From a virus: a stretch of 31,086 nucleotides of DNA. The notes below the pieces were generated by a model, which was not told the DNA's origin, did not search any database, and saw only the letters and a program-made list of their open reading frames with translations. The position numbers and the translations under genes are program-made. Positions 853 through 20,987 of the stretch are shown piece after piece (positions within the stretch are counted from its first letter, which is position 1; each line of letters begins with the position of its first letter). The DNA lies in IMG/VR virus record IMGVR_UViG_3300031576_000589, positions 1-31,086 of that record; one strand, written 5' to 3'.

Positions 853-854
853 AA

Positions 855-1093: not shown

Positions 1094-1116
1094 GTGTATA
1101 AACTCCTTTCTAAATA

Positions 1117-2645: not shown

Positions 2646-2665
2646 GTTGCCTCCTTTCTTAATGG

Positions 2666-2679
2666 TATAGACGTCTATA
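2666..2679. promoter_or_regulatory. operator-like palindrome, centre CG (fully symmetric)
   Basis: TATAGA-CG-TCTATA is a perfect 14-bp palindrome. It lies between the SD of the 227-aa gene and the end of the broken endonuclease-like gene, whose TAG stop is inside it. A half-copy, ACGTCTATAC, follows at 2691-2700. Confidence 0.65.
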
Positions 2680-3315
2680 CTTCATAAGGTACGTCTATAC
2701 CGAACGGAACTTCTTTAACTTCTCGTGCAGGATAGACTCTATACTTATCATATTTATTTCTAGCACGAGCATTATAATGTTTATTAATAGCTATGCACGA
2801 CGTATTAGAACTTTCTGTACTTGGTATTAACCACATTTTTTCAAGCCGTTTGTTTGTATTTAATCCGACCAATACAAAATAATCTACTATGTTTTTTCCT
2901 CGTAAAGAAAATCTCCAGAATAAATATGGGCGGTTAAAAGAATGCGGGAGACGTGTTCTAACTTCAACTTTTTTATTTCCAAGTCTGCCGTCATAAGCAT
3001 AATCCTCCTCTAAAAGAGTTAGCCCTTTTATGTATTTACAAGCGAGACGTTCGCCTATAGTGGCTATTTCTATGTTACCTTTAGCGCTATAAAGACACCG
3101 CGTGTGTTTTTTTATATAACTGTTGCCATATTTTCAAACAGTTTCTTTTTCATGGCGGCGCCGTTTTAAATAGTTACGCCATTTCTTCGTAAGCATAATT
3201 TAATGCCTTGGTGTGTGCGGTTTAGTTGTTTTGCTATGTAATGAGTTGCGTGGCAATTCTTATACATGGTTATTATTTTTTCTCCTTCTTCTATAGATAT
3301 TTTTTTATGTGTCAT
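2675..3315 (-). pseudogene. broken HTH plus nuclease-like gene (homing-endonuclease remnant)
   Basis: An ATG at 3315 (overlapping the end of the VWA gene by 11 bp) opens a 49-codon frame reading as a helix-turn-helix: EEGEKIITMYKN, HYIAKQL, IKLCLRRNGVTI, then TAA at 3166. Beyond it, a long open frame without its own start runs from about 3140 to the TAG at 2675. It contains YDGRLGNKKVEVRTRLP, SFNRPYLFWRFSLRG, KNIVDYFVLVGL and KMWLIPS. The order D, then VEVRT, then a hydrophobic Trp/Phe block resembles PD-(D/E)XK-type phage homing nucleases; this is recognition by eye only. One base inserted in the A-run near 3137 would join the second half to MKKKLFE. At least one stop and one frameshift break the gene. 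Confidence 0.5.
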
Positions 3316-5620: not shown

Positions 5621-5630
5621 TAGTCGCCTC

Positions 5631-7901
5631 CTATTTAACTTTATTAATATCGGCAAGAGTCTGTACAAAGTCCTTGCCATAAGCTTTAACAAACTGAGTA
5701 AACTCTTTGGTGGTAATTATTTCTTCGTACTTATTCTTGAGTACTTCGTTTGATACCAGTTCATACGTAACCATAGTCGCAAACATTTCGTCTAGGTTTT
5801 TAGTTGCCCAGACGAAAGCTTTCAGGGCATTCTCATAAGGTTTACTTGACCTTAAGATATAAGTGTAAAGGCTTGTAGACAAGGCATAGTTAACCGACTC
5901 TTTTATTTCCGGATCCAATTTACGTTCCTTCCAGTCATTAACTTTGCCTGCTAATATGTCTTCCATTTTCGGCAATTGAGTATGAAGCTGTGAGTACGAT
6001 ACAAACTCACTGCCAACACCGTCTGAAACAAAGCCGCCTATTAACGGCGCATACCCGCTGATATTAGATTCGCCTACCGAATTAACCACGTCAGACACAA
6101 ATTTCCATGAGTTACCGCACCATATTGCTTGCCCGTCTCTGCGGACTAACAACGTGTGGTTTGGTACTTCGACGCAATATACCATTCCTGTATATTTTCG
6201 TTTCTGTATATGGTGAGGCTGAACAATAGGGCGCAAGTAGCGTTTTGTGAGAATAGCTACCGTCCAAACACCAGAGTCTTTGAATTTGGTTTTACCGTCT
6301 GCATAAGACGGACGGAAACTTAGGTTCGCTGAATACCCTAAGCGCATAGCAATTTCTTGTATGTCGTTTGCTAATTGCATAGATCCTACAGCAACAATGG
6401 TTTCTCCGTTTGTTGTCCATCCGTCACCTTTAATGAAAGTCTCTAATAGATACGCCAATAGTCTGGGTGAATAAGTTAAGAAGTCTCGAACCATTTTCTT
6501 ATCCCAGCCAGTTTTACTTGGTTCTAATAGCGTATACAATTCTTTTGAATTGAATGTTACTTGGCTGTGTTTATCGCTGTTGTTAGGTTTGAATCCCATT
6601 TCCGAAATAATATCTGCTATTTCTTTTCTGTTTGTTGCCGATACTTGCCGGATTCTAATAGAATAGGAACCTCTTTTTGCCAGAAGTTTATTTAAGTTTC
6701 CTTCGGAATAGAACCAACCTAAGAATTTAAAGAACGGTATAGCAGGTAGCTGAATTGTTTGGCCTTTATTTTTTGGAGTCGAGCCAATTAATTCTATATA
6801 CTCTGTATCTTTACCAGTCCAGATTGCGTCTTTTCTGAATCTGAATGACTTAGACCCAGAGTTTTTAATGATATCATAGATAGACTCCGCTGTTTGAAAA
6901 GCCCATTCTTCTGTTTCCCATTTTGTTCCTTTAACATTATTGTGGTCGAGATGACCACGACCGGCTAAAGAATGGGAAAGACCTTTGGCTTGGAAGGCGG
7001 GCTGAATTAGCTTGCTTATGCCTTTATGATAGGCTTTTTTCGCAAACATATTATGGTTAGGCGTTACTAACAAATTATATTGTGCGCCCCAAAACTCTAT
7101 CATGTCACCTTCATAAGGTGCTGTGAAATACTTTGTAGGAGTTACAAATTCTACAACACCGTCTTTATTTAACGAAGCTACTTTGTCTGTTGGTTTTAAA
7201 TCTCTAAACAATACAAAGCCACGTTCTGTCATAACTTCTGTTGCTGAGTCGTAACAGCGTGGGTTTGGGAAGGCGTCCGTATATTGTTTCCAATTTGCGT
7301 CATATAAGTAGTGTTGGAATTGTTTCAGGAACGACATGACTATAGGGTGAATGTTATTCTTAATTGCCCAAGTCATGAAGCTATCCAAATCCGCCCGTAC
7401 TTTGATAGTGCCGAACCTGCCCCTCAATGCTTTAGGCATTTCGTTCACTACAGATTTATCCGTGAGTCTATTACCCGCGCCACACGGATAAGTATTATCA
7501 GGCAGAGCATATTCACCTACCCGCCTGTCATGAATTAATTGGTAGCAAGCAGACTGAACTGGGGTTGGGGCTGAATTTAATTCGTCTAAGAATAGAATTC
7601 GTTTCTTATTGTCTCGAGGCAGGAATATAGGCGGATACCATGTAGTAGCTTTAAGATCACGGTCTACTACAGGAACGCCTCTTATTTCCTGTGGAGACAA
7701 CATAGACGCCCTAACGTCTATTAGTTCCATGCTTAATTCTTTAGCGGTAGTTCGGACACCTTCAGACTTTCCGATACCAATACCGCCTTGAATAAAGACA
7801 GGGCGGTTAGCGGCAATCGCCCCTTTTAGTTGAACGACAAGTTCAGTAATAGAAATGCCGTCGTCGATAACGGTCTTGTTAGTTCCCTCTTCTAGACTCA
7901 T
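5631..7901 (-). CDS. MoxR-type AAA+ ATPase, intein-containing
   Basis: The ATG at 7901 has SD TTGGAGGT. The precursor is 756 aa and about 374 aa after splicing. Walker A is GGIGIGKS (39-46), Walker B is ILFLDE (102-107), sensor 1 is GAGNR (141-145), and an arginine-finger-like LRGRFG is at 159-164. All lie in the N-extein and identify a MoxR-family AAA+ ATPase. The C-extein begins SWKFVSDVV, as in this family after the PR motif. The VWA/metallopeptidase gene starts 10 bp downstream, so the two form the usual ATPase-adaptor pair. Two operator-like palindromes and a -10 element lie about 35-75 bp upstream of the start. Confidence 0.9.
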   Translation of the reverse strand: MSLEEGTNKTVIDDGISITELVVQLKGAIAANRPVFIQGGIGIGKSEGVRTTAKELSMELIDVRASMLSPQEIRGVPVVDRDLKATTWYPPIFLPRDNKKRILFLDELNSAPTPVQSACYQLIHDRRVGEYALPDNTYPCGAGNRLTDKSVVNEMPKALRGRFGTIKVRADLDSFMTWAIKNNIHPIVMSFLKQFQHYLYDANWKQYTDAFPNPRCYDSATEVMTERGFVLFRDLKPTDKVASLNKDGVVEFVTPTKYFTAPYEGDMIEFWGAQYNLLVTPNHNMFAKKAYHKGISKLIQPAFQAKGLSHSLAGRGHLDHNNVKGTKWETEEWAFQTAESIYDIIKNSGSKSFRFRKDAIWTGKDTEYIELIGSTPKNKGQTIQLPAIPFFKFLGWFYSEGNLNKLLAKRGSYSIRIRQVSATNRKEIADIISEMGFKPNNSDKHSQVTFNSKELYTLLEPSKTGWDKKMVRDFLTYSPRLLAYLLETFIKGDGWTTNGETIVAVGSMQLANDIQEIAMRLGYSANLSFRPSYADGKTKFKDSGVWTVAILTKRYLRPIVQPHHIQKRKYTGMVYCVEVPNHTLLVRRDGQAIWCGNSWKFVSDVVNSVGESNISGYAPLIGGFVSDGVGSEFVSYSQLHTQLPKMEDILAGKVNDWKERKLDPEIKESVNYALSTSLYTYILRSSKPYENALKAFVWATKNLDEMFATMVTYELVSNEVLKNKYEEIITTKEFTQFVKAYGKDFVQTLADINKVK
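6111..7256 (-). mobile_element. intein with LAGLIDADG endonuclease in the MoxR ATPase
   Basis: This 382-aa intein starts at Cys1 (CYDSATEVMTERGF) and ends IWCGN before Ser+1. Block B is LLVTPNHNMF. LAGLIDADG-like helices are FKFLGWFYSEGN and LLETFIKGDGW. The penultimate residue is Gly instead of the usual His, a known but less common variant that can slow splicing. The extein join would read FPNPR-SWKFVS, which is a natural MoxR sequence. Confidence 0.9.
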
Positions 7902-7907
7902 AAGGTA

Positions 7908-7929
7908 ACCTCCAATTAAAAAAAATTAA
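7908..7929 (-). repeat. repeated RBS leader cassette (copy 1 of 4)
   Basis: On the minus strand this reads AATTTTTTTTAATTGGAGGT just before the ATPase start. Near-identical leaders stand before the genes starting at 9518 (9523-9542), 9727 (9732-9753) and, as TTTTTAATTGGGGGT, 10978 (10982-10996). The shared part goes beyond the SD itself, so the leader was probably duplicated with gene insertions or is kept for translation control. Confidence 0.6.
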
Positions 7930-7934
7930 ACCGC

Positions 7935-7975
7935 TATAGACCTCTATATAATATTATACAATATAGAGTTCTATA
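7935..7975 (-). promoter_or_regulatory. leftward promoter flanked by two operator-like palindromes
   Basis: Palindromes lie at 7962-7975 (centre GT) and 7935-7948 (centre CC). Between them, on the minus strand, is a perfect -10 TATAAT (7958-7953). A -35 hexamer 17 bp upstream is weak (TTAATA). One palindrome would cover the spacer and the other the start of transcription, the classic layout for repression. It would drive the ATPase, VWA and downstream genes. Confidence 0.5.
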
Positions 7976-7977
7976 TA

Positions 7978-8061
7978 TTAAACTTTATTTACTTTGTTAC
8001 TGGAAAGATCATGGTCTTTTTTACATTTCGTATTACCGCAAGCACAATAGTTTCGTTTCAT
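7978..8061 (-). CDS. 27-aa putative Cys-rich peptide
   Basis: The ATG at 8061 has a GGAAG SD 7 nt upstream and lies 2 bp after the ArdC-like gene. The peptide has three Cys and one His in metal-binding-like spacing (YCACGNTKCKKDHD). It ends immediately before the operator pair. The size makes it uncertain, but SD, spacing and the Cys pattern favour a real gene. Function unknown. Confidence 0.4.
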   Translation of the reverse strand: MKRNYCACGNTKCKKDHDLSSNKVNKV

Positions 8062-8062
8062 A

Positions 8063-8869
8063 TTAAGCTTCCTGTGTTTCTAAGTTCTCGAGTATTGCAT
8101 TCTCGAAAGCACTTCTGCCGCTTTTTATTATGCGATCGGCGCAACTGAATATACGCCTTGCAGAAGTTTCTTTAATCTCATTGCTTCCAATATAGTCTTG
8201 AATGTATCCTCTGCAAAGTTCTGCCCCTTCCATACCAAGAGTATCAAGACAGAGTAATGCAGAAGCTTCGGCTTCTACTTCCTGAATGGTTTTGACTTCA
8301 TGGTTTATATTCTCATGCTTTAAAAGGGCGTGAGACATTTCATGTAGTAAAGTCTTGAGTTTGAAAGGGCAGAGCGGATTAATAGCAATGTCCTTTTTGT
8401 TTTCAGTATAGCCTTGGACATTGCCGTTAGTTGAGGTGAAAGGTATTTCTGTAAACTCAAGAGTCTTTAATGCGGTTTCTTTATTCCAAGTTGGCGGTTC
8501 TTTGAACACAGGTTCTTGACCTTCAGTCTGTGAGAGTAAAAACCAATGGTATTGTAAAGAGAACCACATAATTTTCTTGAGTTTCTTTTCGCCTGTAGTT
8601 TTATTAACCTCTTCTATTTCTTTAAAGAAAGGCTGGATTAAACCAATGGCGTGTTCGCCTTTCTTTACATGGCGCCCCATAGCTTTCCATTGCTTGAAAC
8701 TATTAATAGGCGAAGGCTGAAGCTTCTTGCCAACAGCTTGACTCCAAGCCATTAATTGGTTACCTAGCGAATAGTTCCAGAATAGTTTATAGGCGTTACT
8801 TAAAACGCCCGCTTCTGTTACGGCTGACTTTAATAGTTCAGCCCATTTAACTTGTCTTTGCGGATTCAT
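8063..8869 (-). CDS. ArdC-like anti-restriction protein with zinc metallopeptidase domain
   Basis: This 268-aa protein starts at an ATG that overlaps the upstream small gene by 4 bp (ATGA). The N-terminal 110 residues (WAELLKSAVTEAG, YSLGNQLMAWSQA, FKQWKAMGRHVKKGEHAIG) match the ArdC N-terminal single-strand-DNA-binding domain type. The C-terminal half has HEMSHALLKH (176-185) and a downstream acidic helix EVEAEA (197-202) as a likely third zinc ligand. ArdC proteins protect incoming plasmid or phage DNA from restriction, which fits an early-expressed phage gene. Target specificity cannot be seen. Confidence 0.8.
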   Translation of the reverse strand: MNPQRQVKWAELLKSAVTEAGVLSNAYKLFWNYSLGNQLMAWSQAVGKKLQPSPINSFKQWKAMGRHVKKGEHAIGLIQPFFKEIEEVNKTTGEKKLKKIMWFSLQYHWFLLSQTEGQEPVFKEPPTWNKETALKTLEFTEIPFTSTNGNVQGYTENKKDIAINPLCPFKLKTLLHEMSHALLKHENINHEVKTIQEVEAEASALLCLDTLGMEGAELCRGYIQDYIGSNEIKETSARRIFSCADRIIKSGRSAFENAILENLETQEA

Positions 8870-9015
8870 AATTCATTCTCCCTTTTAATTTTGGTTTTAA
8901 GGTTCAGTTCCATTTCTTTAAATAAAATATCAAACATATCCTGTTGATATTTTAAAGCTTTTGCCTGAACGTGCTGGTCACACAGCCGTTCGGTGGTACA
9001 ATCTTTACAATCCAT
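8866..9015 (-). CDS. 49-aa Cys-containing small protein
   Basis: The ATG at 9015 has a strong AGAAAGGAG SD. The sequence starts MDCKDCTTERLCDQH, giving CxxC plus Cys/His spacing for one zinc ion, followed by a long amphipathic helix. Its TGA stop overlaps the ATG of the ArdC-like gene, so the two are translationally coupled and may act together. Family unknown. Confidence 0.65.
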   Translation of the reverse strand: MDCKDCTTERLCDQHVQAKALKYQQDMFDILFKEMELNLKTKIKRENEL

Positions 9016-9027
9016 AGAATCTCCTTT

Positions 9028-9213
9028 CTATTTATTAATAAACTCATAAGAGCCGCCGCCTAATTCTTTAATATAAAAGTAAATACCTAATAGTTTCTTC
9101 TGTTCTTCAGACATATTAGGTAAATAGGCAACAGCATGAGGCTTTTCAGCAGGGTAAACATACATTTTGTTTACCTTTATTCTATTACGAATAAAGTTTA
9201 CTAATTTATTCAT
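9028..9213 (-). CDS. unknown 61-aa protein
   Basis: I take the ATG at 9213 (MNKLVNFIRN) rather than an upstream TTG at 9231. An operator palindrome abuts this ATG and provides the AGAGG SD, the same arrangement as at 1344. The first half is basic (FIRNRIKVNKMYVYPAEK) and the second half acidic to neutral (LPNMSEEQKKLLGIYFYIKELGGG). No motif is recognised. Confidence 0.6.
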   Translation of the reverse strand: MNKLVNFIRNRIKVNKMYVYPAEKPHAVAYLPNMSEEQKKLLGIYFYIKELGGGSYEFINK

Positions 9214-9226
9214 ATAGACCTCTATA
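9213..9226. promoter_or_regulatory. operator-like palindrome that contains an RBS
   Basis: Plus-strand centre CC. On the minus strand it runs directly into the ATG of the 61-aa gene, with the central AGAGG as SD. It lies only 2 bp after the stop of the 96-aa gene (9228), so it separates two cistrons. Confidence 0.7.
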
Positions 9227-9227
9227 C

Positions 9228-9518
9228 TCAAAGAGTATTTATTTTGACATGAGTTTCGTCGTGTTCCTGCACGACGTATGTTCCTTTATGGACTATATTT
9301 GCGGTTATATGAAACCGCCCGACTTGTTTTTCCTTGACAGCCATTTTCTTGAATTCGTCTTTAATGGCTTCGTCGATTACTTTGAATTCTGCCGCCGCTT
9401 CTTTCGCGGCTTCGCGTTTCTCTAATAGAATTTCTAAAACATTCAGGTCAAGACGGCTATTATTCTTATAGCCTTCTGTATCAAGACCTGCTTTGGCTAA
9501 TACTTCAACTAGTTTCAT
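9228..9518 (-). CDS. unknown 96-aa protein
   Basis: The ATG at 9518 is chosen because the upstream TTG at 9530 lies within the SD (TTGGAGGT). The N-terminus is MKLVEVLAKAGLDTEGY. A helical Lys/Glu/Ala-rich centre follows (LEKREAAKEAAAEFKVIDEAIKDE), then a C-terminal beta part (FHITANIVHKGTYVVQEH). The leader is a copy of the AATT-polyT-GGAGGT cassette. Function unknown. Confidence 0.7.
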   Translation of the reverse strand: MKLVEVLAKAGLDTEGYKNNSRLDLNVLEILLEKREAAKEAAAEFKVIDEAIKDEFKKMAVKEKQVGRFHITANIVHKGTYVVQEHDETHVKINTL

Positions 9519-9565
9519 AGATACCTCCAATTAAAAATTAAATACGAATTTCTCCACGTGTGGAA

Positions 9566-9727
9566 TTAATCTTGGTCATTTGACATTGCTTTGAACCACG
9601 CCTTATGCCATTGTAACCAAACTCTGGAAGCACGTTCGCGGTCTTCAGCCGCCTTTTGTGCTTCAGCGTCTAAAAGTTCATGGTCTTTAGCTACTTCTTT
9701 AGCTAAAGTTACTTCTTTGTTACTCAT
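9566..9727 (-). CDS. unknown 53-aa helical protein
   Basis: The ATG at 9727 has SD TTGGAGGT within the repeated leader cassette. The protein is a single charged helix followed by a Trp-rich C-terminus (RVWLQWHKAWFKAM). It lies between the nucleotidyltransferase and the 96-aa gene in one leftward run. Confidence 0.65.
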   Translation of the reverse strand: MSNKEVTLAKEVAKDHELLDAEAQKAAEDRERASRVWLQWHKAWFKAMSNDQD

Positions 9728-9756
9728 AGAAACCTCCAATTAAAAAAATTAAACAA

Positions 9757-9770
9757 TATAGACCTCTATA
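9757..9770. promoter_or_regulatory. operator-like palindrome, centre CC
   Basis: Exact TATAGA-CC-TCTATA overlapping the stop codon of the nucleotidyltransferase gene and standing upstream of the 53-aa gene leader. Confidence 0.65.
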
Positions 9771-10251
9771 GTCCTCGAAGTTTAGGTTCTTTCCATTCTT
9801 TACCGAAGAGTGCATAAATACTTTCTTCGGTATTGCCTGCTAATTGTTGCCCGCTAGAATCAAATATTCCATTATCATTAAAAGTCCAGCCGTTATTCTT
9901 ACACTTAACGGCATAGCCTATAGAATATCCAGCCGATCCTGTTCGTCTTAATAGGCAAGCCCCCCAGCTTGTTTCATTAGTAAAGTAAAAGTCAAATTGA
10001 ATGCCGCCTATTTCGGCATTAATTTGTTTATCGCCATACTTAAGAACCTTGAAATTGCTATGAATGAATTGACGTGTTATTGCGTTTGGTATTATAACAA
10101 TATCCACATCTTTAAATCCAAGCTGTTTTCCACGTCGATAACTACCTGCTACGTCTATTTTAACACATGGGATTGCCTTTATATAAGCTGAAAGTATTTT
10201 ATCGACCTCAGATCTGGAAAGCTCTTTACCGTTTACTAATAGCCCGCCCAT
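9766..10251 (-). CDS. DNA polymerase X/beta-like nucleotidyltransferase, 161 aa
   Basis: The ATG at 10251 has an AGGTGG SD 3 nt upstream; the longer frame to 10275 has no better signal. Motifs in order: GSYRRGK (36-42), DVDIVI with the two catalytic Asp (48, 50), the third carboxylate in IQFDFYF (87), then RRTGSAGYSI (102-111) and a thumb-like C-terminus, FGKEWKEPKLRG. This matches the palm and thumb of family X polymerases but without the N-terminal 8-kDa or fingers modules. The role could be gap filling, end processing or nucleotide addition. It sits among early genes. Confidence 0.75.
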   Translation of the reverse strand: MGGLLVNGKELSRSEVDKILSAYIKAIPCVKIDVAGSYRRGKQLGFKDVDIVIIPNAITRQFIHSNFKVLKYGDKQINAEIGGIQFDFYFTNETSWGACLLRRTGSAGYSIGYAVKCKNNGWTFNDNGIFDSSGQQLAGNTEESIYALFGKEWKEPKLRGL

Positions 10252-10483
10252 AAGCCACCTCTTCGAGTTTAGCAACTCTAAAGCCTTGTCTATATATCAT
10301 ACGCCATATTAAATCCGAAGTCTTGTCTTGAGTAATTGAGCATAGACAAGTTAATTGTCTTAATGCTCCTTCACATAAAACCGCCCCTCTGTAGTTCTCT
10401 TCTTTAATAGCCATATAGAATTCCCGATAGGTCTTGAAAGCCTCTTTTATCAAGACCTCTGTATCTATTTTATTTCCCGACAT
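10226..10483 (-). CDS. unknown 85-aa helical protein
   Basis: Start taken at the ATG at 10483 (MSGNKIDTE), preceded by a GGGGGCG SD; an upstream ATG at 10495 adds four residues. It overlaps the upstream zinc-ribbon gene by 14 bp and the following nucleotidyltransferase start by 26 bp, so all three are likely translated as a coupled set. Mostly helical (FKTYREFYMAIKEENYRGAV) with two Cys in LTCLCS. Family unknown. Confidence 0.65.
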   Translation of the reverse strand: MSGNKIDTEVLIKEAFKTYREFYMAIKEENYRGAVLCEGALRQLTCLCSITQDKTSDLIWRMIYRQGFRVAKLEEVAYGRAISKR

Positions 10484-10634
10484 AGACGCCCCCATTCTCT
10501 TTAATTTCTTTAACAGTCTTAAGAATATCTAGTCTTAATTCTGTAAAAGCGCATAGAGTGCAAAAGTCCTGTTCATGAAATTTAATTGTCCTATGTTCGG
10601 ATATGTGAATACCACACTTATTGCAGTTATTCAT
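10470..10634 (-). CDS. 54-aa zinc-ribbon protein
   Basis: The ATG at 10634 has a GGGAGGT SD. The sequence has CNKC near the N-terminus and CTLC about 20 residues later, with His residues between, a small zinc-ribbon pattern. A helical C-terminus (LRLDILKTVKEIKE) follows. It overlaps the next gene. Confidence 0.65.
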   Translation of the reverse strand: MNNCNKCGIHISEHRTIKFHEQDFCTLCAFTELRLDILKTVKEIKENGGVYVGK

Positions 10635-10666
10635 AGAAACCTCCCTTACTTCTCTTTACAGAAAAC

Positions 10667-10978
10667 TTAATTTTTATTTAATACAATTTGCCTCTTTTGC
10701 GGCAGAACATAACCGTTAACCACTTCCATTTTACCATAGTTAGTAAACCCAAGAGTTATCTTGTCTTTATGATCATGGGCGTGGAAGTAGGTTTTAAGTT
10801 TACCTAAGTTTCGCCCAAGAATAGGCATAAGCGTTATGTTCCGTCCTTTGACGTCTATTAAGTCCTCGACTCTTTCAACGTCTTTAGGTTTTGCTTTAAT
10901 AGGCAAGACCGTTACTGAATAACCAAACGGTTTAAAGAAAGCCGCAAGGTCTTGAGAACCTGTTTGAAATTGCGCCAT
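10667..10978 (-). CDS. unknown 103-aa protein
   Basis: The ATG at 10978 has a GGGGG SD within a copy of the repeated leader. The sequence contains IDVKGRNITLMPILGRNLG, then TYFHAHDHKDKITLGF with a His/Asp cluster that could bind metal. The end is a basic strand (LPQKRQIVLNKN). No family recognised; a small DNA-binding or single-domain enzyme is possible. Confidence 0.65.
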   Translation of the reverse strand: MAQFQTGSQDLAAFFKPFGYSVTVLPIKAKPKDVERVEDLIDVKGRNITLMPILGRNLGKLKTYFHAHDHKDKITLGFTNYGKMEVVNGYVLPQKRQIVLNKN

Positions 10979-11000
10979 AAAACCCCCAATTAAAAAGCCG

Positions 11001-11234
11001 TTATTTAATAAGGCAAACGGCCGAAGCCTTTGGAAGAGCCAATTCGCTTTTAGCTATCGCTACTGCTATATCGAATCGGCAAGAGGCACAAACGTTTGTG
11101 CCGACTACTTGAACCTTACAAATTCGACAAGGTTCAATTCGCCTATAGCATTCAGGGTATCTAGCTAAATGAATGGCTAGATACTTGTATGCAATAGCCT
11201 TAAAATCGCATACAAGACAAGAATAAATATTCAT
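11001..11234 (-). CDS. 77-aa Cys/His zinc-finger protein
   Basis: First gene of the leftward block, with an AAGGGGGG SD. The N-terminus CLVCDFKAIAYKYLAIHLARYPEC resembles a C2H2-type finger (Cys-x2-Cys ... His ... Cys). It is followed by CRIC and CASC, a second zinc site. The first position in the block, beside the control region and two operator palindromes, makes it a candidate regulator, for instance the protein binding the TATAGA-NN-TCTATA sites. This is inference only. Confidence 0.7.
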   Translation of the reverse strand: MNIYSCLVCDFKAIAYKYLAIHLARYPECYRRIEPCRICKVQVVGTNVCASCRFDIAVAIAKSELALPKASAVCLIK

Positions 11235-11309
11235 AAAACCCCCCTTATAGAATAGCCTATTATTAAAATAGTATATATAAGGTATAGGCTTAAACCCTTA
11301 TATATAGAA

Positions 11310-11349
11310 TATAGACTTCTATATAAGTAAATGAATATAGACTTCTATA
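11310..11349. promoter_or_regulatory. pair of operator-like palindromes, centres CT
   Basis: Copies at 11310-11323 and 11336-11349, again with 26-bp spacing, upstream of the leftward block. A tentative minus-strand promoter lies beside them (TAGACA-like -35 at 11382-11377 and TTTATA-like -10 at 11358-11353); it is weak by consensus. Confidence 0.6.
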
Positions 11350-11372
11350 TAGTATAAATAAGAAGTTTAATT

Positions 11373-11428
11373 TAATTGTCTAAAATTAATTATCTAAAAT
11401 TAATTATCTAAAATTAATTATCTAAAAT
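11373..11428. repeat. four tandem 14-bp repeats (iteron-like)
   Basis: Units at 11373-11386, 11387-11400, 11401-11414 and 11415-11428 read TAATTATCTAAAAT; only the first differs, with G for A. Tandem short repeats beside an A/T-only tract are typical of replication-initiator or partition sites. Confidence 0.85.
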
Positions 11429-11567
11429 ATTAACAAGTAAAATTAAAAAATGTTTGAAAGAAAATAAAAATATTTTTATTTTATTTTTATTTTAGTTTTT
11501 GTTTTTGGCTTACATATTATTAACAAGTAAAAGTAAAAAATGTTTGAAAGAAAATAAAAATATTTTT
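11428..11567. repeat. 50-bp direct repeat in A/T-rich tract
   Basis: Copies at 11428-11477 and 11518-11567, 90 bp apart, with one mismatch (T at 11443 versus G at 11533). Each begins TATTAACAAGTAAAA and ends AATAAAAATATTTTT. The tract between is almost pure A/T and would melt easily. With the iterons this makes the best origin or initiator-binding candidate in the window. Confidence 0.8.
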
Positions 11568-11604
11568 GAAAATAATTTAGGAAAATTTTTAGACAGAAAA
11601 AGGA

Positions 11605-11651
11605 GTAGGGGGGCTGCTACAGTCCGCAGAGAATTTTTTCACTTCCCCTAC
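11605..11651. other. stem-loop between the repeats and the promoter
   Basis: GTAGGGG (11605-11611) pairs perfectly with CCCCTAC (11645-11651). An inner CTGC/GCAG pair (11614-11617 with 11626-11629) adds a second stem. It is GC-rich against an A/T-rich background. It could be part of an origin or a terminator-like structure; a T-run lies inside, not after it. Confidence 0.45.
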
Positions 11652-11661
11652 AATTTTATGT

Positions 11662-11690
11662 TTGACAAACACACTACAATATTGTATAAT
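11662..11690 (+). promoter_or_regulatory. consensus sigma70 promoter, probably leaderless
   Basis: TTGACA (11662-11667), 17-bp spacer, TATAAT (11685-11690): a perfect match. The ATG of the downstream gene is at 11697, so transcription should start at or next to the start codon and leave no room for an SD. Confidence 0.85.
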
Positions 11691-11696
11691 GTTATT

Positions 11697-11882
11697 ATGA
11701 AAAAAGAAAAGAAATGTAAGAAGCATAAATGGGTGGACGAATATGTTGGTGTGTCTAACGACACTAGAATATTGCTGCGCAGTTCTGCTATATGCGCAAA
11801 ATGCGGTAACTTTTATAGTTATGCGTCTGAACATTATAATTTAAAATACCTTAAACTTCGTAAACGTTTTCATGATTATTAG
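11697..11882 (+). CDS. 61-aa basic zinc-binding protein, leaderless
   Basis: The ATG at 11697 is the only Met in the frame; the open frame upstream to 11499 is A/T-rich non-coding sequence. The sequence has a Lys-rich start (MKKEKKCKKHKWVDEYVG), then CAKCGNFYSYASEHYN, so Cys/His ligands for one zinc ion, and a basic tail. It is the first rightward gene from the consensus promoter and should be expressed immediately by host RNA polymerase. A DNA-binding or host-takeover role is plausible but not shown. Confidence 0.7.
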   Translation: MKKEKKCKKHKWVDEYVGVSNDTRILLRSSAICAKCGNFYSYASEHYNLKYLKLRKRFHDY

Positions 11883-11884
11883 AA

Positions 11885-11898
11885 TATAGAGGTCTATA
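11885..11898. promoter_or_regulatory. operator-like palindrome containing an RBS
   Basis: Exact TATAGA-GG-TCTATA between two rightward genes; its AGAGG lies 9 nt before the ATG at 11902 and is the only SD there. Confidence 0.7.
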
Positions 11899-11901
11899 GT
11901 T

Positions 11902-12171
11902 ATGGAAAATTTATTTAACGTTCATATATGGAGTGACCGCATAACATTAAAAAGCAGAAACAAAGGGCGAAGCTTTGAGCTTCGTTTCAGAATAGCCACA
12001 AGCAGCAGGCAGCGGTGCGAGATTTGTAGAAAACCTTTAGATCAGAATAGTACATATATTACAAGTATTTATGGCTTAAGTTTTTCTTTTTCTAACACGT
12101 CTTCAACCATTTGCACTAATATAGGCGGGTCTAATACTTCAACTAGTTTGTCGTACGGCATATTTATATAA
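11902..12171 (+). CDS. small CxxC protein, C-terminus doubtful
   Basis: The ATG at 11902 follows an operator-embedded SD. The first 55 residues look real (FNVHIWSDRITLKSRN, RFRIATSSRQRCEICRKPLD), with one CxxC. The last 34 residues are Ser/Thr/Ile-rich and lie antisense to the 3' end of the minus-strand gene at 12069-12338. The original 3' end was therefore probably lost, and this is likely a truncated gene reading into its neighbour. Confidence 0.45.
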   Translation: MENLFNVHIWSDRITLKSRNKGRSFELRFRIATSSRQRCEICRKPLDQNSTYITSIYGLSFSFSNTSSTICTNIGGSNTSTSLSYGIFI

Positions 12172-12338
12172 TGAGTTGTCCCATTACTTAATGTTATATA
12201 CGAATATTTTCTGTCGGATTTAGGACTCACAGATACGATAGCGTCTTGAAGAATAAGAATGTCGTACATTATGTTATGTGGAGCGCAGAGTTGGTTGTCG
12301 TCTGATATGCTTATTTGTTGGAGCTGTAGTCTTTTCAC
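12069..12338 (-). CDS. unknown 89-aa protein, beta-rich
   Basis: GTG start at 12338, with no clear SD. The central part (AIVSVSPKSDRKYSYITLSNGTTHYINMPYDKLVEVLD) alternates strands and one helix and resembles small FlbD/LytTR-like beta folds, by impression only. An operator palindrome lies 59 bp upstream (12397-12410). It converges with the rightward gene at 11902. Confidence 0.55.
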   Translation of the reverse strand: MKRLQLQQISISDDNQLCAPHNIMYDILILQDAIVSVSPKSDRKYSYITLSNGTTHYINMPYDKLVEVLDPPILVQMVEDVLEKEKLKP

Positions 12339-12396
12339 GGCATGTATTATAATTATTTACTATATTTAAAGCAAATAAAAAACATATTTTGTAAAG

Positions 12397-12410
12397 TATA
12401 GAGGTCTATA
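12397..12410. promoter_or_regulatory. operator-like palindrome, centre GG
   Basis: Exact TATAGA-GG-TCTATA in the intergenic region upstream of the minus-strand 89-aa gene. Confidence 0.7.
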
Positions 12411-12421
12411 GTCTAGAAAAA

Positions 12422-12500
12422 AGGGCGGCATTTATGGGGGGAATTCTTTTCGACTCATGTTTTTTTAATTTAGGCTATAAGCCCAAGTCGGATTCGCCCT
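12422..12500. ncRNA. candidate nested stem-loop RNA
   Basis: Three nested pairings fit: AGGGCG/CGCCCT (12422-12427 with 12495-12500), TTCGACT/AGTCGGA (12449-12455 with 12486-12492, one G-T) and GGCT/AGCC (12473-12476 with 12480-12483). The region is non-coding and more GC-rich than its surroundings. It does not fold as a tRNA. Strand and function are unknown; the plus strand is used for pairing here. Confidence 0.3.
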
Positions 12501-12593
12501 AGCCACCCGAAATCAATTCTATTCTTTCTCCCTTAAATTACAAGCCTTTGAGTTTTCTTTTGTCATTATTTTTTAAATATTTTTCCTTACGTA

Positions 12594-12622
12594 TTGATTA
12601 ATGGAAAAAATAGGACTAAAAT
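12594..12622 (+). promoter_or_regulatory. sigma70-like promoter
   Basis: TTGATT (12594-12599), 17-bp spacer, TAAAAT (12617-12622). It would start transcription near 12629, about 32 nt before the GTG at 12661, and drive the zinc and membrane-protein genes. Confidence 0.5.
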
Positions 12623-12660
12623 AATATGCGGTTGGTGGGTTAAGAATAGGTGGTGGTTAG

Positions 12661-12852
12661 GTGAAAGGGGAACGGCCGTATAACTTATTTATGATCCGTA
12701 CGGCTTGCGGCGAAGTTCTGATTAAATACACGCATGTCGGAGACTGGACAGATCAGATTTTAGAACACGTCAATAAATGTATATTTTGCGGCAAAGACTT
12801 TGCTGCGAATATAATTCGGGAAGTATTTTCAGAAACAGACGACTTGAGGTGA
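12661..12852 (+). CDS. 63-aa small protein with CxxC
   Basis: GTG start at 12661 with AGGTGG upstream; an internal ATG (MIRTACGE) is a less likely alternative. Ligand-like residues are a lone Cys in TACGE, then His and CIFCGKDF. The TGA stop is 3 bp before the next ATG, so the genes are coupled. Similar in size and style to the other phage zinc-ribbon proteins in this window. Confidence 0.55.
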   Translation: MKGERPYNLFMIRTACGEVLIKYTHVGDWTDQILEHVNKCIFCGKDFAANIIREVFSETDDLR

Positions 12853-12855
12853 AGT

Positions 12856-13137
12856 ATGGAGACAGATTCGAACGGAATGTTAATGTTAGTTGCCGGGTTT
12901 ATGTCCGGGTATTTAGTAGGCTTTATTGCTGGTGTTCTAGCTAAGTTTCTTATTGACTGTATTTTAAAAACATTCCTCACTACAATCGATTGGTTTGGCA
13001 AAAATAAAATCAGCGGATTTTTTAGAGGTACTGGTCTGGACGAAATAAATAACGCTGTTAACGAAAAGAATAAAGTAATCAGCGAGAAGAATCGAATAAT
13101 TAGTGACAGGCATAAAGGCAATAAAAATGCGGGATAA
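12856..13137 (+). CDS. 93-aa membrane protein with coiled-coil tail
   Basis: SD GAGGTG. Residues about 9-40 are hydrophobic with Gly-rich helix-packing motifs (LVAGFMSGYLVGFIAGVLAKFLIDCIL). They are followed by an amphipathic segment and a charged C-terminal coiled coil (NEKNKVISEKNRIISDRHK). It is first of three consecutive small membrane proteins. A role at the host membrane, such as superinfection exclusion, is possible but unproven. Confidence 0.65.
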   Translation: METDSNGMLMLVAGFMSGYLVGFIAGVLAKFLIDCILKTFLTTIDWFGKNKISGFFRGTGLDEINNAVNEKNKVISEKNRIISDRHKGNKNAG

Positions 13138-13267
13138 GATAAAACCAATTTTATGTGTTGCCGGATTAGTAATAAGCGGTATAGCGCTTTTTGCCTGTGT
13201 GGTTTCGTTTAGTTACGGCTTTTATTTAAAAGCTCTTCGGTTATATACCGAACTGTCTATAAAGTAA
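13127..13267 (+). CDS. 46-aa single-pass membrane protein
   Basis: The ATG at 13127 overlaps the previous gene by 11 bp. A short basic N-terminus (MRDKIK) is followed by one membrane span (PILCVAGLVISGIALFACVV) and a short tail. No SD is obvious, so translation probably depends on coupling. Confidence 0.55.
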   Translation: MRDKIKPILCVAGLVISGIALFACVVSFSYGFYLKALRLYTELSIK

Positions 13268-13272
13268 ATTAT

Positions 13273-13455
13273 ATGGTTACTACTGATATAATTGCCTTAA
13301 TTGTTGTGTATTTGGTTATTCTATTTGTGTTTTTAGATATAACACTAACTAGCGCAAAATATATATTTATTTGTGTTATGCGAGGCGTTTATTGGTTTGA
13401 TCATAAAATGAGCGACTTTTATACACGTGGGGAAAAGCCGCCTAAAAACCAGTAA
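13273..13455 (+). CDS. 60-aa membrane protein
   Basis: Starts 5 bp after the previous stop. An N-terminal span (DIIALIVVYLVILFVFLDI) is followed by a second amphipathic hydrophobic stretch (YIFICVMRGVYWF) and a charged tail. Third of the small membrane-protein set. Its 3' end overlaps the convergent gene at 13442 by 14 bp. Confidence 0.55.
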   Translation: MVTTDIIALIVVYLVILFVFLDITLTSAKYIFICVMRGVYWFDHKMSDFYTRGEKPPKNQ

Positions 13456-13957
13456 TCATTTCTTGGTGTAACGCGCGTAATACCGCTTCAAGCGGTACAG
13501 CAATATTAGAGGTTTTATAAGTCTTATTCTGCGCAAACATTCTATTATAAGTACCTAACCAAATTTCTTTATTATTTAAATATGCTGTTTGTAATAAATG
13601 AAATGGAAATAAATAAGCTGTTTGTTTAGGCATAATTATGTAGCACAGATAGTGCGGGAATAAGTCTTTCTCAATCCAACCGGGGGTCTTCTTTTCAAAA
13701 CAGGAATACTCTTCAAACAATACGTCTGTATAACCTTTGGTGCGTTTCTTTTCTTCGATCGATATTTTATGCCCGCTGGTTAAATAAACTATTTTGTCGA
13801 TACCTAGCGCCTGCAAACCTAAGTCAACAACAGATTCAACTTTTGTAACGTTTCTAAATTTTTTGAAGTAAATTTGGTTTATTTGTTCTTCGTCTTTTAA
13901 CGAATAGGCCAATCTTTCATGGAAGTTGTTATAAGCCCCCTCCGGTCTTAGCCCCAT
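13442..13957 (-). CDS. 171-aa PD-(D/E)XK-like nuclease-fold protein (tentative)
   Basis: The ATG at 13957 lies immediately after a divergent promoter, with no SD. The sequence VESVVDLGLQALGIDKIVYL is followed by HKISIEEKKRTKGYTDVLFEEYS. The Asp-(x)n-Ile-Glu-Glu-Lys pattern and the strand order fit a PD-(D/E)XK core, as in phage resolvases or recombination nucleases. A Trp/Tyr-rich C-terminal half follows. It is the only leftward gene between 12340 and the late block. The match is by eye and may be wrong. Confidence 0.5.
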   Translation of the reverse strand: MGLRPEGAYNNFHERLAYSLKDEEQINQIYFKKFRNVTKVESVVDLGLQALGIDKIVYLTSGHKISIEEKKRTKGYTDVLFEEYSCFEKKTPGWIEKDLFPHYLCYIIMPKQTAYLFPFHLLQTAYLNNKEIWLGTYNRMFAQNKTYKTSNIAVPLEAVLRALHQEMITGF

Positions 13958-13966
13958 AAATGTTAT

Positions 13967-13994
13967 ATATTACTGATTATTATTAACTTGTCAA
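13967..13994 (-). promoter_or_regulatory. leftward promoter, near-leaderless
   Basis: On the minus strand: TTGACA (13994-13989), 16-bp spacer, TAATAT (13972-13967), then 9 nt to the ATG at 13957. There is no SD. It is back to back with a rightward promoter whose TTGACA begins at 14006. Confidence 0.6.
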
Positions 13995-14005
13995 CTGCAA
14001 GGGTA

Positions 14006-14034
14006 TTGACAAAACAGACACTTAAGAATATATT
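14006..14034 (+). promoter_or_regulatory. rightward promoter, near-leaderless
   Basis: TTGACA (14006-14011), 17-bp spacer, TATATT (14029-14034), then 8 nt to the ATG at 14043. No SD. An operator palindrome lies 35 bp downstream of the -10, inside the gene. Confidence 0.65.
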
Positions 14035-14042
14035 ATGTTTAT

Positions 14043-14219
14043 ATGGGAGAAAAAAGTACCTCTATGGATATAGAGGTCTATATTCGTTGCGTCTCTTGTA
14101 ATGCGTTTTTAGGGGCACGGCTTATAGTTACAGCCGAAGGTACCAGCGCTAAACATATTAGCATGTCTAAATTTTTGTGCGCTGCTTGTCTTGAGCTTTG
14201 TCGGTATAACATGTATTAA
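14043..14219 (+). CDS. 58-aa zinc-ribbon protein
   Basis: The frame is complete from the ATG at 14043 to the TAA at 14217. It has CVSC and CAAC separated by about 30 residues, a compact zinc ribbon, with a Cys also in LELC. Codons 9-13 (DIEVY) are encoded by an operator palindrome (14069-14082). It is expressed from a consensus-like promoter with no leader. Possible small regulator for the early-to-late switch because it stands at the start of the rightward block; inference. Confidence 0.6.
   Translation: MGEKSTSMDIEVYIRCVSCNAFLGARLIVTAEGTSAKHISMSKFLCAACLELCRYNMY
14069..14082. promoter_or_regulatory. operator-like palindrome inside the 5' coding region
   Basis: Last of the 17 copies (centre GG). 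About 25-40 bp downstream of the predicted transcription start of the zinc-ribbon gene, a suitable place for a roadblock repressor. None is found in the 17 kb beyond. Confidence 0.7.
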
Positions 14220-15677: not shown

Positions 15678-16345
15678 AAACCAAACAAGCCGAGCAGTTT
15701 AACAAGAAGCAGGAAAAGACAGCCGCAGAGCTTGAGAAGGTTAAGGCTGAAATAACCGAAGCACGAGATCACGGACTTAAGTTTGGCGGCAATGTCGGCC
15801 AATCTGCAACAGACAGACAAGCAATTGTTAAGCAATTAATTTTTACCGGTATGAGCGATTTAAACGAAATAGCCGCGTTATTTGACGTAAAGGTTCAAAT
15901 AATAAAAAACGACATTAAAAAAATAAAACATGAAATGGTTGAAACTCTTGTTGACGCTACCCCCGAAGAATACACAGCAGGAATTTTGGAAGAAATTGAT
16001 ATATTAAAGCAAGAGGCTTGGGCGCTTTTAAAGCGCGCTAAATCAGATACGATAAAACAAAAAGCAATAGAAAATATTAAAAATATAATAAGGGACAAAT
16101 ATAGTATTTTAAGTAATGCCGGATTGGTTGCAGTAGACAAAGCTTTACAAGTAAAGACAGGGGACACGGTTGATTTATCAAAACAATTTGACGGAAAGTT
16201 TGATAGTATTGTGAATGACCCGATAAAGCGTAAAAAAGTTTTAGATTCTTTTAATCAAATGGTTACAATGTTAAATAAAGAATCAGAAAATAAACCTGCG
16301 GAATTACCGCCGGTTAATACCGAAGGGGGACAGAATGGAATATAA
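15662..16345 (+). CDS. terminase small-subunit-like HTH protein, 227 aa
   Basis: The ATG overlaps the sigma gene by 16 bp. An N-terminal coiled coil is followed by an HTH (IVKQLIFTGMSDLNEIAALFDVK, then IIKNDIKKIK) and a long helical oligomerisation-like segment (about 90-150). This order (HTH, helical core, flexible C-terminus) is that of TerS proteins, and the large subunit is encoded 3.4 kb downstream in the same direction. A late transcription regulator is the main alternative. Confidence 0.5.
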   Translation: MVEEIKTKQAEQFNKKQEKTAAELEKVKAEITEARDHGLKFGGNVGQSATDRQAIVKQLIFTGMSDLNEIAALFDVKVQIIKNDIKKIKHEMVETLVDATPEEYTAGILEEIDILKQEAWALLKRAKSDTIKQKAIENIKNIIRDKYSILSNAGLVAVDKALQVKTGDTVDLSKQFDGKFDSIVNDPIKRKKVLDSFNQMVTMLNKESENKPAELPPVNTEGGQNGI

Positions 16346-18173
16346 AGAACAAGATTTCGGCAAAATTTTAGAAGAATCAAAACATTATAAAGGCAAGAAG
16401 AAAAAAACGGACGAGCAGACTACAACTGCCAATATAGCGACAATACCTATGCCTTTAGTTAAGACAGATAAAAAAAGAAAATCAGATATACCATATTTAT
16501 ATAAAACCTATTTTTTCCCCAGAGACCCGTATAAAGCGCAAGAGCTCCCGCCGTATGGGACTATGCGAAAAGTTTTTACAACGCTTGACGGAAGTAAAGA
16601 ATCAAAGAAAAAACAAGCGCCGTTACCTATGGGGTTTCCTGCGTGGATTAAGCACGGCTGGGTTCCTAAAGAATTAGTATTAAGTAAGAACTGGACTGAC
16701 GGGGAGAAAGCGTTTTTCTTAGAATGTACGCAAGTTGATTTATTACAAAGCGTTCAGAATTATTTAGGCGACGAAGAAAATATAAAAACATATTTACGAG
16801 AAGACAAGTTATTCTTTGAGCGTGAGAATATAAGTAAAATAGAAAAAATGCTTAAAGACTTAGGCTTTTTTACCCCTACAGAATTAAGGCACAAACAACC
16901 GCAAACAGCTACTGAAAGAGCTAAACGTACGCTAAAAAGTGCGAATCCGCTTAAGAAACTAAAAAGCGAATTTGGTGAGGAAGCAGAAGAGCCGATAGAC
17001 GAAAAAGACGGCGACTGGCGTTGGCAGAAAAGTCAAAGAGAATTAGAAAAAGAGACTGACATAAGACGGCAGGGAATTGAAAACGAAGCCACATACGACG
17101 CGATAGAAAAAGCAATACGGCGGGTTGCAAATAATAAAGTCGCTTTAGACGTTAGTGACTTATCAGCGGTAAAAAATTATGTTAAAGCAGACGAATTAAA
17201 TAAACTAGTTCGAGGTTATTACGGCTTAGGTCCTGGAGAGGCTATTGTCGGCGCTTGGTTTGGAACTAAAGAAGACCGAATGAAAGACTTAGACGTTAAT
17301 ATGTTTAACAAAGAAGTAGACGTTTTTGTTGACGGGCGCCTTAATCCGAAGTATAAAGAACCGAATGACGTTCGGGGTTTAATTAAACCCGATAAAGTTG
17401 TTAAGGGTTGGGATTTGGGTATGTTTAATATAAAGACAACTTTACAAATTCCGGTATATGAAGTAGTTGCAGCTGTTGCTACAGATCCGGAATATAAAGC
17501 ACATGAAGATATATTAGAACCGCTTATAAGCGAGAAATATGGAAATGGCGGCGATACTATTTCTGCGGACGTAGAAGGAGACGTAGATATATATTTTATG
17601 CCCGACGAAGCGCCAGCGCCTGTAAGTCCTGAACAGTACAAAGCGCGCGAAAAAGAGATAGCACAAAGAGAATTAGAAGACGAAAACAAACATTATTCAG
17701 AAGACCATTCAAAATGTTGCGATGGGAAGTTCGCTTCAAACGAAGAACGCATAGATTTTCTTAGAAACCTTTCAACTGCTATGGTTAAATATAGATCAGA
17801 GTCGCAAGCAGCGATTAAATACAGCATTCCGGATACAGCTCTTCGGTTAGAACAAAGCGAAATTTATGGCACAGGTAAGGTTTTAGTTCATACTAGATTC
17901 GGTAGTACTAATGCAATAAATGGCTGTATAGTAGAAGAACCTCTTGATTTTAGGGGTATGATAGCAACAAGCTATGGTAGTTCTATACATTTACACGAAG
18001 AACAAGTCGAGAGAGACACGACTGCTTTATCAATTTCTTTAGCAGCTCCGGCATTTTCTCAAACCGAAGTTGAAGAATTATTAGATATTGATTATCCAAG
18101 AGACATACACGGTGAAAATATCAGTGTAACAGTTTCTGGAAATTACAGTGTTTATTATAAACCAATGAAGTAA
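16335..18173 (+). CDS. unknown 612-aa late protein
   Basis: The ATG at 16335 has SD GGGGGA and overlaps the previous gene by 11 bp. The N-terminal 60 residues are basic and likely disordered. A Trp/Pro/Phe-rich segment follows (about 85-125), then a charged helical centre. The C-terminal 130 residues are beta-rich with repeated Gly/Ser strands. One Cys pair occurs in HSKCCDGKFAS. No catalytic motif or membrane span. Probably a virion or packaging-associated protein by position only; I cannot name the family. Confidence 0.65.
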   Translation: MEYKEQDFGKILEESKHYKGKKKKTDEQTTTANIATIPMPLVKTDKKRKSDIPYLYKTYFFPRDPYKAQELPPYGTMRKVFTTLDGSKESKKKQAPLPMGFPAWIKHGWVPKELVLSKNWTDGEKAFFLECTQVDLLQSVQNYLGDEENIKTYLREDKLFFERENISKIEKMLKDLGFFTPTELRHKQPQTATERAKRTLKSANPLKKLKSEFGEEAEEPIDEKDGDWRWQKSQRELEKETDIRRQGIENEATYDAIEKAIRRVANNKVALDVSDLSAVKNYVKADELNKLVRGYYGLGPGEAIVGAWFGTKEDRMKDLDVNMFNKEVDVFVDGRLNPKYKEPNDVRGLIKPDKVVKGWDLGMFNIKTTLQIPVYEVVAAVATDPEYKAHEDILEPLISEKYGNGGDTISADVEGDVDIYFMPDEAPAPVSPEQYKAREKEIAQRELEDENKHYSEDHSKCCDGKFASNEERIDFLRNLSTAMVKYRSESQAAIKYSIPDTALRLEQSEIYGTGKVLVHTRFGSTNAINGCIVEEPLDFRGMIATSYGSSIHLHEEQVERDTTALSISLAAPAFSQTEVEELLDIDYPRDIHGENISVTVSGNYSVYYKPMK

Positions 18174-19766: not shown

Positions 19767-20870
19767 ATGTTGCTTCAAGATAGAGGACACTGGAGACAAG
19801 TTGCTACTCGAGCAGAGAATACTAATCAACTACAGCAGCTTTTAACAAGTCATACAGCCGAAGAAAAAGAACTTATAAAATTACTGTTCGAGTCTTACAA
19901 AGCCAAAGACTCTAAAATAATAAGCGCTATACAAGCTCAAGAATATGACGAACTTCCTGTGTCTATGGCGCAGTGGATAGACGACGATAATTATTTTGGG
20001 CAGATTGGTAAAATGCTTTATCCGCGCGTTAAACAAATGTTGATGGATGTTTTTCACGGGAGTTACTATTTAACTGTGATTACGGGGAGCCAACGATACG
20101 GAAAAACCACACTTGCGCAATGTTGTATATTACGTATTTGTTATGAATTAATGTGCCAGAAAAACCCCCAAACTGCAATAGGTTTAGCTACAGGATCTCG
20201 AATAGATATGGTTAATTTCTCTGTACGAAAAGACGTGGCGCAGAGAGTCATATATGAAGGTATTGTTTCTAAGCTTGAACTAAGTCCGTGGTTTAAGAAA
20301 AAAGGTTTTGAAAAACGTATTAATGAAATTCGTTTACCTAAAAATATCCACGTACTTGGCGGCGAATCTTCAGATTTAGCTATGCTTGGAAGTAACGTTT
20401 GCGGTGCCATTATGGACGAATGTGTGACTGGCGATACAAATATCCAAACACCGCAAGGAAGCATAAGTGCGCAAGAACTGTGGAATAAATATCGAGACTC
20501 TGATTTCTCTATTTGTTCGTTTGATGGTAAAGCGGTAGGCAACTCGTTAGGCAAAATTAAGCTCAAACATGACGAAGAGGTTTATGAAATAATTTTAGAC
20601 GACGGTAAAATATTAAAAGCGTCCTGGAATCACCCGATATTAGTAAAAATTAATAAACAGAAATATATCTATAAGAAAATGATAGATTTGAAAGAAGGGG
20701 ATGACGTAGTTACAGAAGATACGATTGTAGCGCAGCCGACTAAATATCACAAGTTTGTTTGTAAAAATTGTGGGGTTGAGGGGTTTAACATAGAAAAAAA
20801 GACTTTGTATTGTTCTAATCAATGTCATCAGCAAACAAGAAAGAAAATAATTTTGTGTTTAAAGTTTTGA
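19767..20870 (+). CDS. terL: terminase large subunit, N-terminal part fused to split-intein N half
   Basis: This 367-aa protein begins with a helical region and then the ATPase domain: Walker A TGSQRYGKTT (106-115), coupling region GLATGSRIDMVNF, and Walker B CGAIMDE (212-218). The extein stops at Glu218; Cys219 starts an intein N half that runs to the TGA at 20868. The remaining terminase is encoded in the next frame, which is in register (20883 minus 19767 is divisible by 3). The active ATPase therefore needs joining to the second protein, most likely by trans-splicing. Terminase ATPase drives DNA packaging at the portal. Confidence 0.85.
   Translation: MLLQDRGHWRQVATRAENTNQLQQLLTSHTAEEKELIKLLFESYKAKDSKIISAIQAQEYDELPVSMAQWIDDDNYFGQIGKMLYPRVKQMLMDVFHGSYYLTVITGSQRYGKTTLAQCCILRICYELMCQKNPQTAIGLATGSRIDMVNFSVRKDVAQRVIYEGIVSKLELSPWFKKKGFEKRINEIRLPKNIHVLGGESSDLAMLGSNVCGAIMDECVTGDTNIQTPQGSISAQELWNKYRDSDFSICSFDGKAVGNSLGKIKLKHDEEVYEIILDDGKILKASWNHPILVKINKQKYIYKKMIDLKEGDDVVTEDTIVAQPTKYHKFVCKNCGVEGFNIEKKTLYCSNQCHQQTRKKIILCLKF
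20421..20867 (+). other. intein N-terminal half (149 aa) with zinc-finger tail
   Basis: Starts CVTGDTNIQTPQGSI (block A) and has block B LKASWNHPILV (Ser-x-x-His). The splicing core extends about 105 residues. A tail follows with CKNCGVEGF and CSNQC, a zinc-finger unit often found in homing nucleases, then basic residues and the stop. The tail may be a relic of an endonuclease that once linked the halves. Confidence 0.8.
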
Positions 20871-20882
20871 CGGAGAAGACAA

Positions 20883-20987
20883 TTGGCAAAAATTATATCC
20901 AAGAAGCACTTAGGTAAATTACCGGTTTTTGATGTTCAATCCAAGCCAAACGGCAACTTTATTGCAAACGGTTTGATTGTTCATAAT
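20883..20987 (+). other. intein C-terminal half (35 aa)
   Basis: MAKIISKKHLGKLPVFDV then NFIANGLIVHN before Thr+1. Length, start and the KIxxxxxLGKxxVxD pattern closely resemble known split-intein C halves such as DnaE IntC. Penultimate His and terminal Asn are present. Confidence 0.85.

Follow-up and report, generated by a model that had tools for sequence, protein, structure and literature searches.

A repeat-rich non-coding region at the transcription divide of a tubulin-encoding virus fragment, read as a candidate divergent control region

Short repeated DNA sites are found in replication origins, in the centromeres of tubulin-based partition systems and in the operator systems of phages. 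In phage lambda, the O protein binds iterons, which are 19-bp inverted repeats located within the initiator gene O itself, and opens an adjoining 40-bp A+T-rich region, while the activating promoter of a lambda-type origin may lie downstream of the origin and point away from it (PMC5043065). The iterons of plasmids are described in the same source as being generally in helical phase (PMC5043065). In the TubZRC systems of the Bacillus-group plasmids, tubC is located upstream of the tubRZ operon (PMC5016525) and the long C-terminal tail of TubZ binds TubR (PMC5016525, PMC5322520). Two kinds of phage tubulins are distinguished in PMC7950403, the TubZ of a plasmid prophage and the PhuZ of the jumbo phages. 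With respect to phage operators, the stoperators of mycobacteriophages, e.g., L5, are described as asymmetric 13-mers oriented according to the direction of transcription (PMC9283540). The locus analysed here shares some features with each of these systems.

The window, i.e., the whole stretch of DNA analysed, corresponds to a single IMG/VR virus record, 31,086 bases long, of a kind classed as linear and often a fragment. According to Pfam searches of its 48 open reading frames (ORFs), the genes present include an intein-interrupted terminase, a sigma factor, a MoxR-like AAA protein, a VWA-like protein whose gene also carries a LAGLIDADG domain, and a tubulin; searches of Rfam and for tRNAs gave no matches. 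The terminase (19767-23579) is split over two adjacent ORFs by a break located inside an intein. The first ORF closes with an N-terminal splicing segment (Pfam Intein_splicing, E 1.3e-5), and a C-terminal splicing motif marks the end of the roughly 35 residues with which the second opens; this arrangement resembles a naturally split intein. Another intein, containing an HNH domain, follows. The minus-strand ORF 9766-10275 encodes a 169-aa protein that corresponds to a PolX-type DNA polymerase in its palm and thumb only (Pfam thumb, E 7e-11). As seen by eye in the translations, three neighbouring small ORFs on the minus strand (1126-1965) have in common a C-terminal stretch like ILxxAIKDNI. At the right end, a 39-nt repeat of 97% identity occurs at 29979-30017 and 30684-30722, within an ORF of the HEAT-repeat type.

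The region under study, 11235-11696, is a non-coding stretch of 462 bp, the second largest ORF-free stretch in the gene list. The original prediction had placed a divide between leftward and rightward transcription here, which holds for all 16 of the kept ORFs to the left, on the minus strand, and for 30 of the 32 to the right, on the plus strand, but not for the ORFs 12069-12338 and 13442-13957, which read leftward on the right side. The features of the region and of the two genes which flank it are as follows.

11001-11234, minus strand: first leftward ORF, 77 aa, zinc-finger-like, with a weak Pfam zf_C2H2 match (E 0.0024, below the cut-off)
11310-11323, minus strand: palindrome TATAGA-AG-TCTATA, operator-like, exact copy, one of a pair
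11336-11349, minus strand: second palindrome of the pair, exact copy, 26 bp from the 11310 site
11372-11427, plus strand: four tandem 14-bp repeats TTAATTATCTAAAA, the first copy with one mismatch
11428-11477, plus strand: 50-bp A/T-rich direct repeat, copy 1, abutting the 14-bp array
11466-11567, no strand assigned: A/T tract within the least stable DNA of the window; its T-rich spacer forms inverted repeats (I1, I3, I5, I6) with the A-rich tail of each 50-bp repeat
11518-11567, plus strand: 50-bp A/T-rich direct repeat, copy 2, 98% identical to copy 1 at a spacing of 90
11605-11651, minus strand: GC-rich hairpin, arms GTAGGGG (11605-11611) and CCCCTAC (11645-11651)
11662-11690, plus strand: perfect sigma-70-type promoter TTGACA-17-TATAAT, rightward, the sole 12/12 match in the window
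11697-11882, plus strand: first rightward ORF, 61 aa, Cys/His-containing

The 14-bp array and the 50-bp direct repeat in A/T-rich DNA, both part of the original prediction, are real and beyond chance. TRF reports 4.1 copies of the 14-bp unit at 11372-11428 with a score of 107, the top of the 19 rows obtained for the window, and the first iteron begins at 11372, a single base ahead of the start originally predicted. The longest exact self-matches observed in 11235-11696 measure 36 at lag 14 and 34 at lag 90, against 15 (lags 10-39) and 14 (lags 41-249) in 300 dinucleotide shuffles of the same region, which do not model duplication. At 50, 100, 200 and 300 bp, the region represents the most A/T-rich and the least stable DNA of the window. 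The predicted GC hairpin is present as well but is not stabler than shuffled sequences (z -1.5 as DNA, -1.7 and -1.66 as RNA of either strand, -1.29 with other ends). Read leftward, its stem is followed by the T-rich run TCCTTTTTCT, a terminator-like succession that could end leftward transcripts. Closer to the leftward genes, the leader 11228-11312 folds no better than shuffles, and the stretch 11300-11372, read leftward, folds better than shuffles (z -2.63), as expected because two palindromes sit close together in it.

The consensus promoter proposed in the original prediction is borne out by the perfect match at 11662-11690, a 12/12 match of this kind being reached by chance in 9 of 200 shuffles of the window and in 10 of 5000 shuffles of the region. 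The ATG of 11697-11882 would lie at about the expected transcription start. No leftward promoter matching at least 9 of the 12 positions occurs between 11235 and 11460. A leftward match, TTAATA-17-TATAAT, is located at 7981, the single place where such a match is seen together with palindromic sites: its spacer and start region are covered by a pair of palindromes (7935/7962) belonging to a family absent from the original prediction. The palindrome TATAGA-NN-TCTATA occurs in 17 exact copies in the window, where 0.15 are expected from shuffles and none of 100 shuffles reaches 17; all copies lie inside 187-14082, with none to the right of 14,082 or in the right-hand half. Four pairs are spaced 26-27 bp, and the pair 11310/11336, located between the iterons and the first leftward gene, has a spacing of 26 bp, nearly equal to the 27 bp of the pair 7935/7962. 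Two leftward genes, starting at 7901 and near 9727, have a common leader (7901-7980 and 9727-9770) made of the palindrome, a T-rich run, AATTGGAGG and the ATG.

The 17-copy palindrome points to transcriptional control. Multiple near-identical symmetric sites near promoters and gene starts are what is found in phage operator regulons, and the palindromes, together with the leaders, likely represent the layout of a repressor regulon. The mycobacteriophage stoperators resemble them in that many copies of one short site are distributed across a phage gene block, whereas the site of the window differs from the L5 type in being a 14-bp palindrome, often paired 26-27 bp apart and found only in 187-14082. 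No copy of the palindrome occurs in the other viral loci fetched, and the only matches (L102-L119) come from a scan of bacterial genomes that used the same pattern, in which the palindrome pair matched 11 stretches. One of these loci, a contig of a Clostridia bacterium (L117, 7013-16673) that looks from its ORFs like a conjugative element, contains nine copies of TATAGACGTCTATA around a parA-type gene. The sites of this contig were considered as a related system and set aside, no protein of the window matching the contig, and are probably an independent look-alike.

Taken at a probability of roughly one half, 11235-11696 is a divergent control region of the left gene block of the phage, a block which, to judge from its layout, is probably early. 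Rightward transcription would start from the promoter 11662-11690, and leftward transcription would begin to the left of the iterons. A dimeric phage regulator would bind the pair 11310/11336 and the other 15 copies of the regulon, the 14-bp iterons, upstream of the leftward start, would form an additional array bound by protein, and the duplicated 50-bp A/T tract would serve as an easily melted spacer between the two diverging transcription units. Divergent transcription would leave the A/T tract negatively supercoiled, so that the tract may double as a replication start. The perfect rightward promoter, the 17 palindromes, the divergence of the genes and a GC-skew flip explained by coding direction (see below) argue for this reading, as does the pair lying over the promoter match at 7981, placed as the operators of a repressor would be. 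On the opposite side stand the lack of a leftward promoter match in 11235-11460 and the absence of a recognisable repressor gene in the window, among the 48 ORFs searched with Pfam and the 19 of these 48 searched with PHROGs. A guess, made from the sequence, that the ORF 25648-25887 (79 aa) encodes a ribbon-helix-helix protein was rejected as evidence, since its AlphaFold model was too poor (mean pLDDT 54) and Pfam and PHROGs gave nothing useful. Control alone also leaves unexplained why four iterons abut the least stable DNA, and why 50 bp are duplicated almost exactly. The searches, moreover, yielded no relative carrying the region.

The original prediction had proposed GC skew as a check on an origin at this place. 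The cumulative plain GC skew of the window does reach its minimum at 11,244, but coding bias could cause such a flip because the genes also diverge there. The counts of G and C were therefore restricted to four-fold degenerate positions that lie in no overlap. The genes to the left have, on their coding strand, 152 G and 244 C (skew -0.23, gene bootstrap -0.44 to -0.13); for the plus-strand genes to the right, the counts are 422 G and 293 C (+0.18, bootstrap 0.12 to 0.24). Since the left genes lie on the minus strand, the plus strand is G-rich at these sites on both sides, with no switch in GC skew; when the genes that carry inteins are left out, the coding-strand values are -0.36 on the left and +0.18 on the right. 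Codon positions 1 and 2, with a coding-strand GC skew of +0.13 on the left and +0.17 on the right, do reproduce the plain flip, which is thus accounted for by coding direction. The AT skew at four-fold sites does flip, with a coding-strand T excess of 0.08 on the left and 0.18 on the right. The non-coding sequence on the left, C-rich on the plus strand (238 G, 305 C), also agrees with the flip, against the four-fold GC result; the ribosome-binding sites of the leftward genes may be part of the cause. The evidence from skew is mixed and does not establish an origin at this region. Before a minimum of the plain GC skew at a divergent promoter is called an origin, the synonymous sites should be checked.

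An origin resembling ori-lambda, with an initiator encoded outside the fragment which would bind the four iterons, strain and open the adjoining A/T tract and have a helicase loaded, is possible, at distinctly lower odds, either as the main rival of the control reading or as a role added to it; negative supercoiling from the promoter pointing away would aid the opening. The anatomy is consistent with the general scheme given in PMC5043065, in which multiple initiator sites adjoin A/T DNA of low stability and a promoter faces away, and both the plain skew minimum and the flip of the four-fold AT skew count in favour of an origin, along with iterons abutting directly the least stable DNA of the window. 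Against this part of the original prediction stand the four-fold GC skew and a 14-bp period out of phase with the roughly 10.5 bp of a helical turn; the predicted curvature is not unusual either (71st percentile). Furthermore, the exact DnaA box TTATCCACA does not occur in the window, none of its four one-mismatch sites falls within 11235-11696, and Pfam recognises no initiator, helicase or primase family among the 48 ORFs of this 31-kb linear fragment. The lambda ori and early control region likewise combines repeated sites by an A/T-rich stretch with nearby operator-controlled promoters, but the window has direct repeats of 14 bp in a non-coding spacer and its fragment contains no recognised initiator gene. 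The origins of iteron plasmids such as P1, RK2 and R6K similarly have short direct repeats beside A/T-rich DNA, and differ from the window with its off-phase period, its lack of an exact DnaA box near the iterons and its lack of a recognised Rep family. The missing initiator and DnaA evidence and the 14-bp period weaken the case for an origin, for which the incompleteness of the fragment leaves room. It is less probable still, and rather unlikely, that the region is a mostly neutral A/T-rich spacer in which slippage and local duplication made the repeats, selection acting only on the promoter and the palindromes. Repeats of the 14-bp and 50-bp kind arise easily in A/T-rich DNA, the hairpin is unexceptional, and the searches turned up no relative showing the repeats conserved; yet these repeats far exceed their dinucleotide shuffles, duplication being outside what such shuffles model, and are located exactly at the transcription divide.

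The original prediction had also considered a partition centromere on which the tubulin could act, a reading not supported by the present analysis. A tubC-like centromere, at which an adaptor would bind the iterons and couple the DNA to the phage tubulin, is very improbable, even though the tubulin is TubZ-like by sequence, its best PDB match being the plasmid RepX/TubZ (E 3.1e-13), ahead of FtsZ (1.1e-8), and its 14 plasmid matches coming from Bacillus-like genera; its identity to plasmid proteins is about 25%. Apart from this likeness, the window departs from TubZRC in three respects. In the three plasmid relatives opened, of 14 records, a gene of 105-112 aa occupies the TubR position directly upstream of the tubulin, whereas the ORF upstream of the window tubulin has 174 aa, and none of 44 of the 48 window ORFs (the four above 400 aa omitted) resembles the plasmid proteins in that position, the best match reaching 1.4%. 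The 14-bp array lies 15 kb from the tubulin, and TRF gives no row between 20,658 and 30,668 that would place a tandem array nearer, beside or upstream of it. Finally, the tubulin ends about 20 residues past the GL-LP-R motif, well short of the long C-terminal tail of the plasmid proteins. Among the viral contigs, 25 loci (L068-L092, several of them near-duplicates) encode relatives of the tubulin at 23-39% identity, two of which also carry the terminase. For each, the longest ORF, or the two longest, on the same strand with an end no more than 700 bp upstream was compared with a profile built from just three plasmid proteins in the TubR position, of putative winged-helix fold. Leaving aside a locus devoid of upstream sequence (L068) and phage G (L092), the other 23 loci contain, by this measure, no TubR-like upstream gene, with a best match to the profile of 1.3%. 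Phage G may have a TubR-like gene, a 101-aa gene upstream of its tubulin giving a 9.7% match (E 0.0033). A scheme in which the 17 dispersed palindromes and the iteron/A-T region would together make up a combined regulator, origin and anchor system is likewise highly unlikely; in it, one small dimeric protein would read the palindromes in two roles, operator and scattered partition site, and hand the DNA to a tubulin of a TubR-less clade, with replication starting at the iteron region.

Searches of phage records and viral contigs revealed no close relative of the window. In viral_contigs, neither the palindrome pair nor the 50-bp repeat nor the doubled iteron had a match; blastn of 11000-12100 against phages was likewise empty, and neither the tubulin nor 16335-18173 retrieved a relative when scanned as a single protein. 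An alignment of the terminase comprises 57 loci at 22-45% identity, and none of these, nor of four other phage loci, shares another window protein at E 1e-5. A 160-kb record (G005) carrying relatives of both the tubulin and the terminase shares only those two genes; it lacks the palindrome as well as A/T iterons of the window kind, keeps a single skew sign throughout and is thus uninformative on the question of an origin.

What started as a guess at a centromere now consists of separable claims: a 17-site palindrome regulon, likely one of a repressor, which marks the left gene block, a compact repeat region which is a possible origin, and a family of phage tubulins accompanied by no recognisable TubR adaptor. 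Each of the components belongs to a known kind; the palindrome regulon and the tubulin family lacking a recognisable TubR are the more unusual leads.
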